From Synechococcales cyanobacterium bin31.maxbin.ball.101 (GTDB taxonomy: Bacteria; Cyanobacteriota; Cyanobacteriia; Leptolyngbyales; Leptolyngbyaceae): DNA of 64,000 nucleotides. Where the stretch lies: assembly GCA_013298165.1 (NCBI GenBank), contig JAAFJU010000008.1:1-64000 (forward strand), read 5' to 3'. Shown here piece by piece: positions 5,683 through 45,538 of the stretch. The notes beneath the pieces were generated by a model. The model was not told the DNA's origin. It made no database searches and was given only the letters and a program-made list of their open reading frames with translations. Position numbers and translations under genes: made by a program. Every line of letters begins with the position of its first letter. Position 1 is the first letter of the stretch.

Positions 5683-5813
5683 ATAATAGACATTATACAG
5701 AATAAGACGAGGATGAGACAAGTTGGAGGGAGAGGGAGGGGCAATGAGTCTCAAGGTGAGATACAGTGCGGGTCTTAGAGTGAGAGAAAGAGAGGAGTGA
5801 AGAGGGATGGGGC

Positions 5814-5867: not shown

Positions 5868-6239
5868 ATGGTTAAGACAGCGTTAGAGTTAAGTCCAACA
5901 GAGTGGAAACAATATTCGTTGCCTCGGCGATCGGTTACGCCAGAGGTGCAAGCCCGTTGGAATGAAGCTTGGCAACTGATTCCGGAGTTGGCGAGGATGT
6001 TGCGGGAAGAGTTTGGAGCGACCAAAATCAAGGTGTTTGGTTCTGCGGTTAGCGCTGATTATTTTTCAGATGAGTCAGATATTGATATTGCGGCTTGGGA
6101 TATTCCGATCGCACAGTATCTATCTGCCGTGTTAGCTGTAAATGAGTTTCATGACGATTTCAAGGTTGACTTATTGGATCCAAATCTTTGTCGTCTGGTG
6201 TTACGGCAAAAGATTGAAAAGGAAGGGATCGAGGTGTGA
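5868..6239 (+). CDS. Nucleotidyltransferase-fold antitoxin, MntA-like
   Basis: The 123-residue protein has the minimal nucleotidyltransferase signature VFGSA ... SDIDIAAW. Glycine-serine (G58, S59) is followed after 11 residues by D71-x-D73, with a third acidic residue at D101 in KVDLLDP. In the MntA/HepT system the MNT enzyme inactivates the HEPN RNase by adding AMP to a tyrosine next to its active site. The downstream gene has exactly that target motif, which supports the pairing. The spacer between GS and DxD is one residue longer than the GSX10DXD usually quoted. The stop codon overlaps the GTG start of the partner, indicating translational coupling. Confidence 0.8.
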   Translation: MVKTALELSPTEWKQYSLPRRSVTPEVQARWNEAWQLIPELARMLREEFGATKIKVFGSAVSADYFSDESDIDIAAWDIPIAQYLSAVLAVNEFHDDFKVDLLDPNLCRLVLRQKIEKEGIEV

Positions 6240-6727
6240 GCGATCCACTGGTGCGTTTATCGGAAAGAATTTCTGATGAAGTTGTAAAGATAGACTTAGC
6301 CGTGCAACGGGCTAAGCGGGGTTGGCATGATTTTCAGAGTTCCGGTAATGATCTCTTTTTAGATAGTGTTTCGTTGAGTTTGCAGGGTGCCTACAATGGT
6401 GTAGAGGTCATTTTTGAGTTAATCTCCCGCCTAGTCGATCGGAGTCAAGCAAAGGGCGAGAATTGGCATCAGCTTTTGCTCAGGCAAATGATGGCTGAGG
6501 TGGAGGGGGTTCGTCCTGCGGTGATTTCACTGGAGAGTGGTCGATTGTTGAATGACTTTCGAGGATTTCGTCATATCACCCGTCACTTATACCCATTTGA
6601 GTTAGAGGGTGAGCGGATTGCTCAAGTTATGCAGTTTGCGGAGCCAACGTTTGCTCGGGTCTGTACGGAGTTGTCGGCATTCGCTAATTTTTTACTAGCG
6701 TCGGTGGATCCGGATGAAACCCTATGA
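6236..6727 (+). CDS. HEPN-domain ribonuclease toxin, HepT-like
   Basis: The 163-residue, mostly helical protein has the HEPN catalytic signature R-x4-H-x-Y as RHITRHLY (R112, H117, Y119). In HepT toxins this motif forms the RNase active site, and the tyrosine is the residue AMPylated by MntA. It starts with GTG overlapping the TGA of the nucleotidyltransferase gene. It ends with an ATGA overlap into the next gene, so three genes are translationally coupled. The protein is longer than minimal HepT (about 130-140 residues) and has an extended N-terminal helix. Function as toxin is inferred from the motif and gene pair. Confidence 0.78.
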   Translation: MSDPLVRLSERISDEVVKIDLAVQRAKRGWHDFQSSGNDLFLDSVSLSLQGAYNGVEVIFELISRLVDRSQAKGENWHQLLLRQMMAEVEGVRPAVISLESGRLLNDFRGFRHITRHLYPFELEGERIAQVMQFAEPTFARVCTELSAFANFLLASVDPDETL

Positions 6728-7317
6728 TAGTCACAATCCGAGATCCAGACATTCTGAACTCTCTAGACCCAGAACAGGTGAGAGGGTATTTACGATCGCA
6801 CCACTGGCAGGAGGAACGTCAAATAGAAGACCATACCTCTCTGTGGACCCATTCCAATCTGACGGGAGAACCCACCGAAATTCTCCTACCTCTAAAACCT
6901 GATTATCTAGATTTTTCCAGACGAATGGCCGAGGTACTCCAAACGCTGGAAATAGTGGAACAAATTTCTCAGCTTGAAATTCTCAGCGATCTGTTTACGA
7001 CAGCTCCGAACATCACGGTCCAAGGGATTATCACCAATCTACAGGAAGGAGCATTTTCAGGGCGAATCACGCTGATGGGCATTGTCATCAGTAAACTGCG
7101 TCGTATTCAGTTTGAATTGCCTGAACCTGCCTATGAGTTAGCCGTTAAAGCCTATCAAGCGAGGATGCCTGTTCTTTGTCGAGGTACGTTGGTGAAACAA
7201 GGACGATCGTTTATATTGCAACATCCAAGCCAATTTACCTTGGATTTAGACTCCTGGGCAGAATCAGGTGAATCTGAACAGCCAGAAATCAGCGATCGGG
7301 CACTGATGCTTCGATAA
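6724..7317 (+). CDS. Conserved-looking hypothetical protein coupled to the HEPN/MNT pair
   Basis: I do not recognise this 197-residue family. The N-terminal half is acidic and helical. The C-terminal half (about 95-180) alternates short strands (NITVQGIITNLQ, GRITLMGIVISK, PVLCRGTLVKQG, SFILQHPSQFTL) in a way that suggests a beta-barrel such as an OB fold; this is inference from pattern only. The ATG overlaps the stop of the HEPN gene (ATGA). It is therefore almost certainly co-translated with the toxin-antitoxin pair and may be an accessory factor. The spacing of 20 bases to the next gene suggests that one also belongs to the operon. Confidence 0.6.
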   Translation: MIVTIRDPDILNSLDPEQVRGYLRSHHWQEERQIEDHTSLWTHSNLTGEPTEILLPLKPDYLDFSRRMAEVLQTLEIVEQISQLEILSDLFTTAPNITVQGIITNLQEGAFSGRITLMGIVISKLRRIQFELPEPAYELAVKAYQARMPVLCRGTLVKQGRSFILQHPSQFTLDLDSWAESGESEQPEISDRALMLR

Positions 7318-7337
7318 TTCACATTATGTATTGAACT

Positions 7338-7745
7338 ATGGCATTTAAAATTAATGAGGCTCGAATTCGAGAACTAGCTCAAATTGAGGCCGAGGCAGAT
7401 TGTACGATCGGTGCGGGCGGTCATATTCCGTTAGAAAGCGTGCCTGGTTCAGCCATGGTGAGTGAGTCTGCCGATGTTTTGATGGTAGCTGAGACAGATT
7501 TACTCTTAGAAATTAATCGGGGAATACCAGAGCAGATCCATGAGCGATATGAGACTTCACTGGAAAAACGTGACGATGAAGCCTTGAGTGAAGCTAAATA
7601 TAGGGAACTTTTGGATCTCAGCAATCAGATGGAAGGCTTTGGAGTCAGTTGGATTGAGGCATTAGGAAAATTAGCGGCTCTCCGCCAGGTTGCACTACTA
7701 AAATTGATGGATGATTTAGGGATCCAATGCGCAGGTGTCCATTAG
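7338..7745 (+). CDS. Cyanobacterial hypothetical protein of the HNH-nuclease-partner type
   Basis: The 135-residue product has a helical C-terminal half (EINRGIPEQIHERYETS ... ALGKLAALRQVALLKLMDDLGI). This resembles a cyanobacterial family that I recall sitting immediately upstream of a small HNH endonuclease gene. No biochemical role is known to me. Consistent with that pairing, the bases just downstream (7836-7952) look like the C-terminal relic of such an HNH protein, so this may be the surviving half of a broken pair. No signal peptide or membrane segment is visible. The assignment rests on remembered sequence pattern, not on a search. Confidence 0.65.
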   Translation: MAFKINEARIRELAQIEAEADCTIGAGGHIPLESVPGSAMVSESADVLMVAETDLLLEINRGIPEQIHERYETSLEKRDDEALSEAKYRELLDLSNQMEGFGVSWIEALGKLAALRQVALLKLMDDLGIQCAGVH

Positions 7746-8078: not shown

Positions 8079-9923
8079 ATGTCGAACTTTGACTCCACGA
8101 AAAAACGCCTTGCCGATCTCTTGAAAAATATTGTGGAGGGCAAGATCCAGCTTCCCGATTTTCAACGGGGTTGGGTTTGGGATGATCAAAATATTCGCTC
8201 ACTTCTGGTCAGTATTGCCCGTGCCTTTCCAGTTGGAGCCGTAATGATGCTGGAAACGGGCGGTGATGCACACTTTAAGATTCGTCCAGTGGAGGGACTG
8301 GATGCGGACACAATCAAGCCTACGGATGCAGAGCAGCTTATTCTGGATGGTCAACAGCGCCTCACGTCCCTGATTCAAGTGCTGATGATTGATCACCCTG
8401 TGAAAACTCGATCGAGTAATGGGAAGGCTCTCCAGCGTTACTACTATATTGATATTGAAACAGCATTACTGGGTCCGGATCATTATGAGGATGCGATCGT
8501 CGGCGTAGAAGCCGATCGGACTTTGAAAGCGAATTTTGGGCGCGATATTAAATTGGATTTGAGAACCCCAGAGCAGGAGTACAAGAACTTCTATTTTCCT
8601 TGTAACCAAATCTTAAATTCTGACCGTTGGGAGGAAGGACTCAATAGCTATAATCCTGGTCAATTCTCACGGTATATGCAATTTCGGACCCAGATGCTGA
8701 GTGTCTTTCGGTCCTATGATGTGCCAATTATTCAGCTTAACAAGGAAAATAAGAAGGAAGCGGTTTGTCTGGTCTTTGAAAAAGTGAATACAGGCGGAGT
8801 CCCCCTTTCTGTCTTTGAACTGGTCACAGCTACCTATGCCGCTGAGAATGTGAATTTACGAGATGAATGGTATGGGAATGAAAAAGAAGAAATGATTGGG
8901 ATACAACAACAATTTAAGCAACAACGTCTTCTTCAACAGGTTCAACCCACGGAATTTCTTCAAGGACTATCGCTATTGCAGACCTGGGAGAGGCGTCAGG
9001 AGGATATTTCAACGGGGAAGCAAGGGAAGCAAGTTACTGGGATTAGTGCAAAACGAGAAGCGGTTCTGTCCCTTTCTCTATGTGCATATCAGCAGTGGAA
9101 AATAAAATTAACGGCTGGATTTTTAAATGCTGCAAAATTTCTCAGTCAGGAGTCATTTTTCTCAACGCGAGATTTACCTTATAGTACTCAACTTGTTCCT
9201 CTCGCAACCGTGATGGCATTAATTGAAGACGATTGGCGTCAGCCCGTCGTTTACGATAAATTAGCTCGCTGGTTTTGGTGCGGCGTATTGGGAGAGTTGT
9301 ATGGGGGTGCCGTTGAAACGCGAATTGCCCTCGATGTTCAGGATCTGGTCGAATGGATTCGAGGACGAGGCGATGAACCCACAACCATTCGAGATGCTAA
9401 TTTTCAGCCTGCTCGGTTAGAAACTCTCCGATCGCGAAACAGTGCAGCATATAAGGGGATAAGTACGTTGGTTTTACGAGAAGGGGCACAGGATTTCTTC
9501 TGGAAGTCGAAGATTCGGGATCTGAATGAAACGGAGTGGGATGAATGCCAGCTTGATATTCATCATATTTTCCCGAAAGTCTGGTGTGAGAAGCAGAGGA
9601 TTTCGCCGAAACGGTACAATTCCATCCTCAATAAAACGGCGATTTCATTTAAGGCGAATCGGATGATTGGTGGGAAAGCGCCAAGTGCCTATCTTCAACA
9701 GCTACAAGGGCATTCGGCAGTGCAATTAGATGCGGCGGCGATGGATGCCATTTTGTGGACCCATTTGATCGAGGCAGATCCACTACGCCAAGATGATTTT
9801 GAGGCATTTGTGGAAAGTCGTCAGCGGACCCTTTTGAATAAAATTGCGATTGCGATGGGTAAGCCGATCGTGATCGCAGATGAAAATGTAGATGATGACT
9901 ATTCTGAGCCGGAGGATGAGTAA
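8079..9923 (+). CDS. DUF262/HNH nuclease (GmrSD-type single-protein defence enzyme)
   Basis: The 614-residue protein starts with a DUF262 (ParB/sulfiredoxin-like) NTPase domain. QLPDFQRGWVW (24-34) and LILDGQQRLTSL (88-99, containing the hallmark DGQQR) are clear, as is the later VFEKVNTGGVPLS. The C-terminal third carries an HNH-type nuclease site, LDIHHIFPK (H495, H496), followed by an asparagine-containing segment (NSILNKTAIS, about 514) and a conserved ANRMIGGKAPSAYL block. This is the GmrS/GmrD arrangement fused in one chain, as in several antiphage nucleases that act on modified DNA. Target specificity cannot be inferred. An acidic tail ends the protein. Its position next to HEPN/MNT genes fits a defence island. 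Confidence 0.85.
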   Translation: MSNFDSTKKRLADLLKNIVEGKIQLPDFQRGWVWDDQNIRSLLVSIARAFPVGAVMMLETGGDAHFKIRPVEGLDADTIKPTDAEQLILDGQQRLTSLIQVLMIDHPVKTRSSNGKALQRYYYIDIETALLGPDHYEDAIVGVEADRTLKANFGRDIKLDLRTPEQEYKNFYFPCNQILNSDRWEEGLNSYNPGQFSRYMQFRTQMLSVFRSYDVPIIQLNKENKKEAVCLVFEKVNTGGVPLSVFELVTATYAAENVNLRDEWYGNEKEEMIGIQQQFKQQRLLQQVQPTEFLQGLSLLQTWERRQEDISTGKQGKQVTGISAKREAVLSLSLCAYQQWKIKLTAGFLNAAKFLSQESFFSTRDLPYSTQLVPLATVMALIEDDWRQPVVYDKLARWFWCGVLGELYGGAVETRIALDVQDLVEWIRGRGDEPTTIRDANFQPARLETLRSRNSAAYKGISTLVLREGAQDFFWKSKIRDLNETEWDECQLDIHHIFPKVWCEKQRISPKRYNSILNKTAISFKANRMIGGKAPSAYLQQLQGHSAVQLDAAAMDAILWTHLIEADPLRQDDFEAFVESRQRTLLNKIAIAMGKPIVIADENVDDDYSEPEDE

Positions 9924-16050: not shown

Positions 16051-19011
16051 TTAAACTTCGGCAGTGTTGGCTTCTTGTTGACGGTAGAGCGCATAATAGA
16101 GACCGCGCATTTCCATGAGTTGCTCATGGCTGCCCTGTTCTGCGATTTTGCCCTTATCCATCATTAAAATCAGGTCGGCATTTCGGATCGTTTGGAGTCG
16201 ATGGGTAATAAAGAAAACCGTTTTTCCTCTAAAAACCTGCATCAAGTTTGTACAGAGTTGTTTTTCAGTATGGACATCCAAAGCACTGGTTGCCTCATCT
16301 AAGATCAAAAGATTTGGATTTTGCAAAACGGTCCGCGCGATCGCGATCCGTTGACGCTGTCCCCCAGAAAGAGAAGCCCCACGTTCGCCGACCCGAGAGT
16401 TATAGCCTTGGGGTAAATCCATAATGAACTCATGGGCACAGGCGATTTGAGCAGCTTGGACAATTTCTTCTGGAGCTGCGTCGGGGTTTGTCAAGGCAAT
16501 ATTTTCTTGAACGGTTGTATCAAATAAGAGTGTGTCTTGCAGGACCATGCCAATTTGCTGGCGCAGGGAATGCAGTTCAACTTTGTGGATATCATAGCCG
16601 TCAATGAGAATGCGTCCTGCTTCCGGGTCATACAATCGGGGGATGAGCTTTGTTAACGTACTTTTTCCTGCGCCACTTTGTCCCACGACCCCAACAAATG
16701 TGCCGGGTTTGATATCGAGCGTGACGCCATCTAATTGTGGATTAGGAGTACTGCCAAAGCGGAATGTAATGTTGTCATAGGAGACTGCACCTTGGACCTG
16801 TGGCATGGGGATGTTGGCACGATCGGCTTCGGTTGTTTCTTGAGGGGTATCGAGAATATCGCTGAGGCGTTCGAGAGATAGTGCAGTCTCCTGAAAATTT
16901 TGCCAAAGTTGAATCAGGCGTAGAAGAGGACTGGTGGTATAGCCTGCAATAATGCGGAATGCAATCAATTGGCCTAAGGTCAACTGATTATTGAGGACCA
17001 TCGAAGCTCCAACCCAGAGGAGTAGCAAGCTAGAGAGTTGATTCAAAAAGGAACTCATCGCACCCGATGTGGTGGATGTCATGACGGTTTTAAAGCCAGC
17101 ATTCACATACCGCGCATAACGGTCCTGCCAATTCCAACGCGATCGAAGCTCAATATTTTGTGCTTTAACAGTTTGAATCCCTGAGACCACCTCAACTAAG
17201 TAAGACTGCTGTTCTGCATTTCGTTCCGCTTTCAAACGAGCTTGTTGTCGCAGAATAGGAGAGACGGTTAGGGTTAAGATTGCAAAAAGAGGAACAGTAG
17301 CCAGAGCAACGATCGTGAGAAGCGGACTGTAAAAAATCATCACCCCAATGTAGATGACTGAAAAGACAGCATCTAGGACAACCGTGAGAGCGGTCCCCGT
17401 CAAAAATTGGCGAATATTTTCAAGTTCGTTGATGCGAGTAGACAGTTCACCCACAGGTCGTTTTTCAAAGTATCGCAATGGGAGTCTGAGGAGATGATCG
17501 ATCACCTCAGACCCAAGATTCATATCAATGCGATTCGTGGTCTCAACGAAAAGATTAGTCCGGACCACACTCAAAAACGCTTCTGCCAAGCCCATGGCAA
17601 TCAGGAGAGAGCCTAATAGATTAAGGGTTTCTGCGGCATTCTGCATGATCACCTTATCGATGATGACCTGCGTAATGAGGGGATTCGCCAGACCCAGCAA
17701 TTGAATAAAGAAGGAGGCGATCAACACCTCAATTAAGACCCGCCGATAGCGGATGACGGATGGCGTGAACCAGGACAACCCAAATTTTTGCTTGGGTGTA
17801 TCTTTGTTGGGCTGAAGGAGGAGAATTTCACCTTCCTCACCCCAAATATCAATAAACGTTTTTGGATTGATGTGCATTAGCCCGCGTTCAGGGCTGGCGA
17901 GGATAACGCGCTTCTCACTGACGTAATAGAGCAGGGCAAAATGGTCCTGCCATAGCACCATCACCGGAGTTTCTAGTTGTGGAATTGCACTGGCCGGAAT
18001 CGTGGCGAGCTGAGCCGTCAGACCCATTAATTCACCGATCGCGCCACAAAACTGCAAGGATAGGGACTCAGTCCGCTGTTTTTGATTGAGCAACGCTCGA
18101 CGTAAGACATCCCGTCGAAAGGGCATTTTCCAGAGTTGACTGAGCATCTGAAAGCAAGCGAGTGCCGAATCGACATCACCCTTGCCACGAATCAAAGGAT
18201 AATTACCGCGCTTGAGCACTTCATCATCTGGCTCTAATGCAGCAGGTCTTTCAGGTGCATAGGGCACTGTACTAATCGCTGAATCATCCACGGCTTGAGC
18301 ATCGAATGATTCGATCGGCTCGGTCGGAGGACTAGGCTTTGGAATTCCGATTAAGCGAGCATTGGGACCTTCAATCATAAGGTCAGCATCGTCTTCTGTT
18401 AAACGACTGCCAATGGTGTAATTCGTTTTCCCAGCACTGATAAACCAGAGTTTGGTGTTATCAAGTTGGGAATGCTTCACTTTCCCCGTCGGTAATGTCA
18501 ATGTAATGGTGTCTGGCAATAAGTCTTGAACCAGACTAGCGACATGAACTTTAGCGATCGCATGACGCTGAGCTTCTTGAGACATCAGATCGTAGAGTTC
18601 ATTGAGACCCGGTTGCTCATGAAACGCCGCAGCAAAGGAAGCTTCAGATCGTAATAGATCTCGAAACTCTCTTGTACTAAGGGTTAAACAAGTGGCCTCA
18701 GTGGATGCGATCGCAGTTTCACAGGGAACATCTCGAAGAATACTCTGCCATCCCAGAATGGCTCCAGTCCCCAAACGCTGTAAAGTCTCTGGCAACTTTG
18801 TTTGAACCGAAGGAGCCAAAATTCGCACTTGCCCTTCATGGACGATTGTAATTTGAGCTGGAATTTGATCGCTCAACAGAATCGCTTGACCCATACGATA
18901 ACGTAGGGGCCGAAGTTGCTGACTAACCCGTTCGAGCGCGACTTTAGAGAGTCGGTCAAACGGTGGGGTCTGCTGAAGAAAGTCTAGAATGATAGGAGTA
19001 GTGAGAATCAT
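16051..19011 (-). CDS. Type I secretion ABC exporter with cNMP-binding and degenerate C39-like N-terminal domains
   Basis: The 986-residue protein combines four parts. A cyclic-nucleotide-binding-like domain comes first (about 12-125). A C39-type peptidase-like domain follows (about 270-395), then a six-helix exporter membrane domain (about 420-700). The ATPase has Walker A GQSGAGKST (777-785), the signature LSGGQRQR (about 880) and Walker B LLILDEATSALD (about 900). In the C39-like domain the usual D-C-G active-site segment reads GDVDSALACF, so the catalytic cysteine is absent and the domain should bind rather than cleave substrate. Its start overlaps the stop of the parvulin gene (ATGA). 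The nearest candidate substrates are the divergently encoded 240-residue protein and the giant toxin. Confidence 0.92.
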   Translation of the reverse strand: MILTTPIILDFLQQTPPFDRLSKVALERVSQQLRPLRYRMGQAILLSDQIPAQITIVHEGQVRILAPSVQTKLPETLQRLGTGAILGWQSILRDVPCETAIASTEATCLTLSTREFRDLLRSEASFAAAFHEQPGLNELYDLMSQEAQRHAIAKVHVASLVQDLLPDTITLTLPTGKVKHSQLDNTKLWFISAGKTNYTIGSRLTEDDADLMIEGPNARLIGIPKPSPPTEPIESFDAQAVDDSAISTVPYAPERPAALEPDDEVLKRGNYPLIRGKGDVDSALACFQMLSQLWKMPFRRDVLRRALLNQKQRTESLSLQFCGAIGELMGLTAQLATIPASAIPQLETPVMVLWQDHFALLYYVSEKRVILASPERGLMHINPKTFIDIWGEEGEILLLQPNKDTPKQKFGLSWFTPSVIRYRRVLIEVLIASFFIQLLGLANPLITQVIIDKVIMQNAAETLNLLGSLLIAMGLAEAFLSVVRTNLFVETTNRIDMNLGSEVIDHLLRLPLRYFEKRPVGELSTRINELENIRQFLTGTALTVVLDAVFSVIYIGVMIFYSPLLTIVALATVPLFAILTLTVSPILRQQARLKAERNAEQQSYLVEVVSGIQTVKAQNIELRSRWNWQDRYARYVNAGFKTVMTSTTSGAMSSFLNQLSSLLLLWVGASMVLNNQLTLGQLIAFRIIAGYTTSPLLRLIQLWQNFQETALSLERLSDILDTPQETTEADRANIPMPQVQGAVSYDNITFRFGSTPNPQLDGVTLDIKPGTFVGVVGQSGAGKSTLTKLIPRLYDPEAGRILIDGYDIHKVELHSLRQQIGMVLQDTLLFDTTVQENIALTNPDAAPEEIVQAAQIACAHEFIMDLPQGYNSRVGERGASLSGGQRQRIAIARTVLQNPNLLILDEATSALDVHTEKQLCTNLMQVFRGKTVFFITHRLQTIRNADLILMMDKGKIAEQGSHEQLMEMRGLYYALYRQQEANTAEV

Positions 19012-44839: not shown

Positions 44840-45538
44840 ATGAATCGAATCATCAAAGTTGATCGAGTAAATACATTAGAAGAAGCAGTTATGCTTCAAG
44901 ATCTTGGAGTAAATATTATTGGCATTTATTTTGGGAAAGATATAAGATTTAATGATGATAGAGAAATGACAAAGAATTTATTGATTGATATAAAAAATAA
45001 ATTAAAACCAGCAACAGAAATTTGTTGTCAGATTACATCAGATTACAAAGGTAATATATTTGAAATAGCTGATTTGTGTAGCTATCTTCAAATTCTTGAT
45101 TTTGATTTTGACTATCTTTCAGAAAATATCTTTCAAAACAAGTTAAAAGATAAGATTATCTATTCCATTACATCAATATCATATGACGATGAAATATCCT
45201 ATGTTCTCAGTTCAATACAAGATAAGAGCCAGTTAAGTCCTTCATTTATCCATGCTGATTTATTAGCTAGTATGGATAAGTCATGGAATTTCCTTAAAGA
45301 AGAATGTCCTAAATATCCAGATCTTCTTCAGATAGAAGATGTTAATAACTTCTCCAATCAATATCCATTAATCATTGGTATCGATTCAAATCTAGATAAC
45401 ATCTGTGAATGTATAGCTATGATGCCAAATATTCGCGGATTTAACTTTGCGCTTGCAAATGTAGAACCAAATAATAATGATGTCCATCATGTAGAATACA
45501 AAAAATTGTGTGAATTATTGAGATTAATTAAGAAATAA
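44840..45538 (+). CDS. Putative immunity protein with a TrpF-like (phosphoribosylanthranilate isomerase) fold
   Basis: The 232-residue product starts six bases after the toxin stop, the usual immunity position. Its N-terminus (IIKVDRVNTLEEAVMLQDLGVNIIGIYF) aligns by eye with the TrpF opening (K-KICGIT--EDA--A--LGAD-IGF-F). Its C-terminus (YPLIIGIDSNLDNICECIA ... GFNFALANVE) aligns with the TrpF phosphate-binding end (P-ILAGGL-P-NV-EAI ... VDVSSGVE). The catalytic cysteine of TrpF falls on D8, and the GGTG motif is absent, so it should not be an active isomerase. I infer that a TIM-barrel scaffold has been reused to neutralise the tip. It is AT-rich like the tip itself. There are no trp genes nearby. 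Confidence 0.7.
   Translation: MNRIIKVDRVNTLEEAVMLQDLGVNIIGIYFGKDIRFNDDREMTKNLLIDIKNKLKPATEICCQITSDYKGNIFEIADLCSYLQILDFDFDYLSENIFQNKLKDKIIYSITSISYDDEISYVLSSIQDKSQLSPSFIHADLLASMDKSWNFLKEECPKYPDLLQIEDVNNFSNQYPLIIGIDSNLDNICECIAMMPNIRGFNFALANVEPNNNDVHHVEYKKLCELLRLIKK

Follow-up and report, generated by a model that had tools for sequence, protein, structure and literature searches.

An MNT-HEPN gene pair in the slot of a DUF4365 gene: a likely hybrid locus with a short PDC-M02B gene in a cyanobacterium

We analysed a 64,000-nucleotide stretch of a cyanobacterial draft genome (the window, in what follows), in which a gene pair of the MNT-HEPN type is followed, in strict coupling, by a third gene of the PDC-M02B kind, a component of the phage-defence candidate PDC-M02 of PADLOC (the other component, PDC-M02A, being a DUF4365 protein). 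The operon is real and unusual, and its most plausible reading is that modules of two known kinds have been joined by a graft, not that it is a new three-component system. We consider it likely that this is a hybrid locus, in which an MNT-HEPN module sits in the slot of the DUF4365 gene, and that the third protein is not a partner of HEPN; our best guess is that it serves as an antidote to the DUF4365 nuclease or restrains it.

Results

Layout of the locus

The open reading frames for the MNT, HEPN and third proteins follow one another in this order on the plus strand, and neighbours overlap by 4 nt; an earlier note on this DNA had claimed both overlaps and a third gene of 197 residues, and the frames and overlaps are as it described them. 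The features of the locus are given here by their window positions.

5868..6239, plus strand: MNT-domain nucleotidyltransferase gene, presumed antitoxin (123 aa; GS-x11-D-x-D at residues 58-73)
6236..6727, plus strand: HEPN gene (HepT-like_2 in Pfam), presumed RNase toxin (163 aa, GTG start)
6236-6239, plus strand: MNT/HEPN overlap, GTGA
6569..6592, plus strand: HEPN motif R-H-x-x-R-H-x-Y (residues 112-119)
6716..6734, plus strand: junction, 19 nt that span the ATGA and are identical, by sequence comparison, to the DUF4365/third-gene junction of loci L070 and L071
6724-6727, plus strand: HEPN/third-gene overlap, ATGA
6724..7317, plus strand: third gene, short form of PDC-M02B by PADLOC (197 aa)
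6724..6993, plus strand: N-domain of the third protein (residues 1-90), which also occurs alone beside distant DUF4365 genes
6994..7263, plus strand: OB fold of the third protein (residues 91-180), from the predicted structure
7264..7314, plus strand: C-terminal tail of the third protein, absent from most close relatives and of low model confidence

A fourth gene (7338-7745), which lies within the range covered by the earlier note (to 7745), is uncoupled, following the third gene after a gap of 20 nt. Scans for promoters and terminators gave results near chance, and PHROGs held no match for any of the four window proteins.

Some other features of the window deserve mention in their own right. 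A purine-rich stretch upstream of the MNT gene (5683-5795) is an interspersed repeat, with copies on contigs C165, C274 (twice) and C168 of the same genome at 77-86% identity. At its start (7336-7469), the fourth gene shares 86% identity with the beginning of a small gene on C274 (L213 3577-3867, minus strand), itself preceded by a 204-aa gene that looks GNAT-like by eye; since the two proteins diverge after their similar start, the N-terminal segment of the fourth protein looks modular. Further along, a 614-aa GmrSD_N (DUF262) protein is encoded at 8079-9923 and matches the PADLOC candidates PDC-M55C (1.3e-28) and HEC-05 (3.9e-22), and an ABC exporter with cNMP-binding and C39 peptidase domains lies on the minus strand (16051-19011). 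A single ORF of 7858 aa (21257-44833), with Ig-like repeats, RHS repeats and a PT-HINT domain, has the appearance of a giant RHS polymorphic toxin; as a guess, the gene next after it (44840-45538) could be an immunity gene.

The MNT-HEPN pair

MNT-HEPN is a common toxin-antitoxin gene pair of bacteria. The HEPN protein of the window has Pfam HepT-like_2 (PF20797, E 6.2e-29) as its sole Pfam match and falls outside PF01934 and PF08780; the motif R-x4-H-x-Y with its target tyrosine, pointed out in the earlier note, is indeed present at residues 112-119. In an alignment of the family (45 rows, of which two are gapped at the motif and 43, window included, were counted), the tyrosine and the histidine directly after the arginine are found in 43/43 and the arginine in 41/43, and the position of the canonical histidine of R-x4-H is held by H in 16/43, by N in 13, Y in 7, S in 6 and K in 1. 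Because this histidine is so variable, RNase activity of the family cannot be read from the canonical motif alone; the window copy does have the motif.

The MNT protein appears to be a nucleotidyltransferase, on matches that are weak but consistent (Pfam Polbeta, E 2e-5, just under the Pfam cut-off; NCBIfam MntA, E 1.4e-5, 24.9 bits for a cut-off of 60). Its GS-x11-D-x-D is where the earlier note had seen it, but the spacing that was thought unusual there turns out to be the ordinary one, with 11 residues in 31 of the 40 MNT sequences compared from such pairs and 10 in the other 9 (window included), and it is ruled out as a peculiarity. An MNT gene is upstream of, or fused to, HEPN in 29 other HEPN loci (some of them judged by eye), and the HEPN family is present on five other plasmid records.

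The pair can be compared with the type VII system HepT/MntA. The excerpted text of PMC7641770 gives as features of Class I an MNT gene directly upstream, RX4HXY, GSX10DXD and membership of PF01934/PF08780, together with toxicity and RNase activity of HEPN and its AMPylation by MNT, whose modification of the conserved tyrosine keeps HEPN from cutting RNA. By this excerpt (PMC7641770), the window is alike in having MNT directly upstream of HEPN, R-x4-H-x-Y with the tyrosine, and GS...D-x-D. By the same excerpt, it is unlike in that its HEPN is of PF20797 and not of PF01934/PF08780, the MNT spacing is 11 and not 10, the MNT protein stays below the NCBIfam MntA cut-off, and the canonical histidine is variable among the HEPN relatives.

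Identity and structure of the third protein

The third gene, presented as unrecognised in the earlier note, is a PDC-M02B gene, since its product matches 29 PADLOC models of that name (best E 2.3e-42); it has no match in Pfam or NCBIfam. The PADLOC match splits into two parts, one of residues 1-97 with the beginning of the profile and one of about 98-175 with its end. The gene is thus a short form that lacks some 200 residues in the middle, and this is also true of other short forms. Short or long relatives were found in 25 of 292 cyanobacterial genomes, including the genome of the window, which has one DUF4365/M02B pair, of the long form, on contig C145. The OB half alone is matched in frames of 172-183 aa (G193:C108, G563:C46 and G601:C312). 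When the third gene is compared with five relatives, the proportion of changed sites is 0.19-0.22 for nonsynonymous and 0.76-0.79 for synonymous sites, the latter being saturated.

In an AlphaFold2 model built from 53 sequences (pLDDT 87.8, pTM 0.71), the N-domain consists of helices and three strands, and an OB fold follows at about residues 91-180, in agreement with the OB-like strands suspected in the earlier note. This fold is a five-stranded barrel with a helix between strands 3 and 4, the order being seen over residues 93-173. We assign it to OB because of many Foldseek matches to OB domains (E of about 0.01) and of the VIA-align comparisons of the predicted model with SilF (Z 9.6, rmsd 2.3, 74 aligned) and SSB (Z 9.1, rmsd 2.8, 83 aligned); at E<=0.001 the lone Foldseek match is a lysyl-tRNA synthetase (5.8e-4), with a poor overall alignment (rmsd 19.9). 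Modelled alone, the N-domain reaches a pLDDT of 84.5; Foldseek gives it no PDB match at E<=0.001, and it may still have a known fold. The OB domain probably binds nucleic acid.

Partners of the third gene and of HEPN in other genomes

A scan of GTDB with an alignment of the third protein recovered 130 relatives, the best 80 of which were examined (an earlier scan, with the single third protein as query, had found no relatives). There is overlap among the sets searched (GTDB, phylum, order, class and plasmid), so that their counts are not additive. In the relatives, the gene upstream codes for a DUF4365 protein (165-187 aa, PF14280), usually with the same 4-nt ATGA overlap, and that of L003 matches PDC-M02A of PADLOC at 5.6e-58. 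We take DUF4365 to be PD-(D/E)XK-like, a predicted nuclease. DUF4365 sequence precedes the third gene in 74 of the 80 loci (best 80 of 130): a match ending at most 400 nt upstream is found in 71, remnants outside this rule are present in L135, L136 and L149, and there is no convincing DUF4365 upstream in L074, L087, L093, L116, L117 and L129.

By comparison, tblastn at E<=0.01, over up to 6 kb on each side, found HEPN or MNT in 0/80 of these loci (best 80 of 130). The view from the HEPN side is the same: among 47 HEPN loci of about 2-3.5 kb, the third gene occurs with the window copy only, being absent within about 1.5 kb of the 46 others. In the 292 genomes, matches to the HEPN and third-gene families adjoin in the window only, and there was no second hybrid among eight loci (L257-L264) from a class search of 388 genomes, with DUF4365 in 7/8 and HEPN or MNT in 0/8. 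The three-component system of HEPN, MNT and third gene proposed in the earlier note thus finds no support from either side (0/80 among the best 80 of 130 third-gene loci, 0/46 among other HEPN loci), and the third protein is found mostly elsewhere, beside DUF4365. Nor do these counts, or the loci L257-L264, bear out a recurring HEPN-MNT-OB unit.

Among plasmids, 18 records match, 17 of them with a near-full-length short third gene, and DUF4365 lies beside the latter in 15/17 (in two pieces in two of these). The third gene had 0 matches in 50,697 phage records, and among viral contigs 34 pattern matches included no relative of it. In the literature, no paper on a three-component HEPN/MNT system was found by title or abstract start among the matches listed, and the open-licence part of PubMed Central (preprints excluded) held no paper on DUF4365 together with HEPN and none on PDC-M02.

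The junction

Compared with 11 PDC-M02 loci, the window is alike from the ATG of the third gene to near its stop (67-70% identity), and no likeness was found outside the third gene in the stretches compared. The 8 nt before this ATG are also the end of the DUF4365 gene in L070 and L071, where they encode its last codons, and form part of the 19 nt identical across the junction. As some HEPN genes end similarly (that of L180 has similar codons, with 11/16 nt), these 8 common nt may be microhomology and not captured DUF4365 codons; under either explanation, the putative exchange point is close to the overlap. No DUF4365 match was found in the window at E<=0.05 (the best, at E 0.077, is far away). 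In relatives, we found neither flank synteny nor an empty site. Neither an ancestral site nor an intermediate carrying DUF4365 in this position turned up.

Asymmetric decay of DUF4365 and the third gene

With intact DUF4365 defined as an ORF matched over 150 residues or more, and 3 contig-end loci of the 80 set aside, the script rule scored DUF4365 as intact in 46/77 GTDB loci (from the best 80 of 130), partial in 18 and none in 13; among these 13, L088 has in fact a 151-aa DUF4365 ORF from which the end is missing. The third ORF is intact in 78/80 (best 80 of 130), in many cases without an intact DUF4365. These loci had been picked by their third gene, which biases the decay count, and the same 292 genomes were therefore searched with a DUF4365 alignment.

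By hand count, the 292 genomes have 26 places with a short-type third gene (the OB-half-only match G193:C108 being set aside), 23 of them intact and 3 fragments (G153, G127, G024). An intact DUF4365 accompanies 15 of the 23 and is missing from 8 (G099, one of four in G191, G101, G030, G022, G155, one in G064, and the window). The reverse case, an intact DUF4365 without a third gene, was found 0 times (8 against 0, exact sign test 0.008, a value that ignores relatedness and is based on only 8 discordant cases, partly related). The partner of an intact DUF4365 is the short third gene in 15 cases and the long one in 5, and in G211 the DUF4365 gene ends with the contig. Two distant but intact DUF4365 genes are overlapped by a small gene that matches the N-domain HMM (31.0 and 29.4 bits):

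L245, 1980-2285 (reverse complement): N-domain-only gene, 100-101 aa, overlapping DUF4365
L246, 1983-2285: N-domain-only gene, 100-101 aa, overlapping DUF4365

These two genes, which match the M02B N-domain alone, represent a minimal form of the partner. Because no intact DUF4365 that can be judged is without a partner, and the partner in L245 and L246 is the N-domain only, this domain is the constant companion of the DUF4365 nuclease. Since DUF4365 is often broken or lost and the third gene intact, the third protein could be an antidote that is kept after the loss of the toxin; such asymmetry is what would be expected of a toxin and its antidote, and it has other possible explanations.

Discussion

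The third gene resembles PDC-M02B in that it matches both ends of the PADLOC profiles and occupies the same coupled position behind a partner gene; the window differs from PDC-M02 in having MNT-HEPN in place of the DUF4365 partner, and its third protein lacks a central part of the profiles, about 200 residues long. The usual partner can be set beside short Argonautes of the SPARDA type with DUF4365-APAZ, which, according to the excerpted text of PMC10810196, degrades DNA nonspecifically once its Argonaute partner is activated. As far as this excerpt goes (PMC10810196), the Pfam nuclease domain is the same, and the Q-x-K that is invariant in our 16-row DUF4365 alignment resembles the published Q62/K64. 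The usual partner, unlike the protein of that excerpt (PMC10810196), is a stand-alone DUF4365 found with M02B, and the window itself is without the nuclease. Much of the earlier interpretation stands, namely the MNT-HEPN pair, the coupling, the OB-like fold and the link to defence candidates; it is the three-component HEPN system that finds no support.

The juxtaposition might be a pure accident, the MNT-HEPN pair having landed beside a dying PDC-M02 remnant whose third gene has no present function. The DUF4365 gene is after all broken or lost in many relatives, in the window's third gene the stop codon of its relatives is gone and a tail has been added, and a relative of the same family (L061/L249) has a decayed third gene. 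Yet the window copy is open over its full length, and the retention of intact third ORFs described above, often beside a DUF4365 that is no longer intact, also speaks against this explanation, which we regard as unlikely.

A different possibility starts from M02B as a general sensor of nucleic acids or restrainer, which in this lineage would have exchanged its DUF4365 DNase for a HEPN RNase to give a working three-gene system of the defence or toxin-antitoxin type. The coupling is exactly kept, the third ORF is uninterrupted and under long-term purifying constraint, and in the listed loci without intact DUF4365 the slot holds no other full-length gene in coupling. However, this constraint spans the whole divergence and not the time since the graft (with synonymous sites saturated), HEPN is already paired with its own MNT, and the N-domain tracks DUF4365, not HEPN. 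Moreover, the window is the one example, with none in the best 80 of 130 GTDB loci, the 46 HEPN loci or L257-L264, and we find a swap of effectors quite improbable. We likewise give little credence to the idea that M02B can drive different effectors, an OB-fold partner of a DNase having passed in a single step to a HEPN RNase that brings its own MNT brake, the translational coupling being preserved. Finally, an assembly chimera is hardly credible, even in a draft genome of 356 contigs, since a 70-kb contig encloses the join, which coincides with a start codon and has a clean overlap of 4 nt, and the assembler had little to confuse in a genome with a single copy of HEPN and no other close third gene (there is one 35% paralogue).

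We thus come back to the graft of an MNT-HEPN module onto a PDC-M02 locus. The two-gene module would have displaced a DUF4365 nuclease gene that stood immediately before the short PDC-M02B gene, presumably by recombination at the gene junction; as the exchange kept the ATGA overlap, the third gene would still be translatable by coupling. By analogy with such pairs, HEPN would cut RNA unless MNT has modified its conserved tyrosine. The third protein is most likely no servant of the HEPN pair, its N-domain being the constant companion of DUF4365 genes; its retention suggests that it could act as an antidote to the DUF4365 nuclease, or restrain it, and have outlasted the loss of that nuclease. 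Such an orphan antidote might perhaps be kept as a protection against DUF4365/M02B pairs borne by plasmids.

Conclusions

Strict gene coupling alone is no proof of a functional unit, and the coupling in the window was apparently made by replacement. The loss of the nuclease and the retention of its partner suggest that PDC-M02B may act as an antidote; PDC-M02 would then be a toxin-antitoxin-like pair, one that plasmids carry as well.
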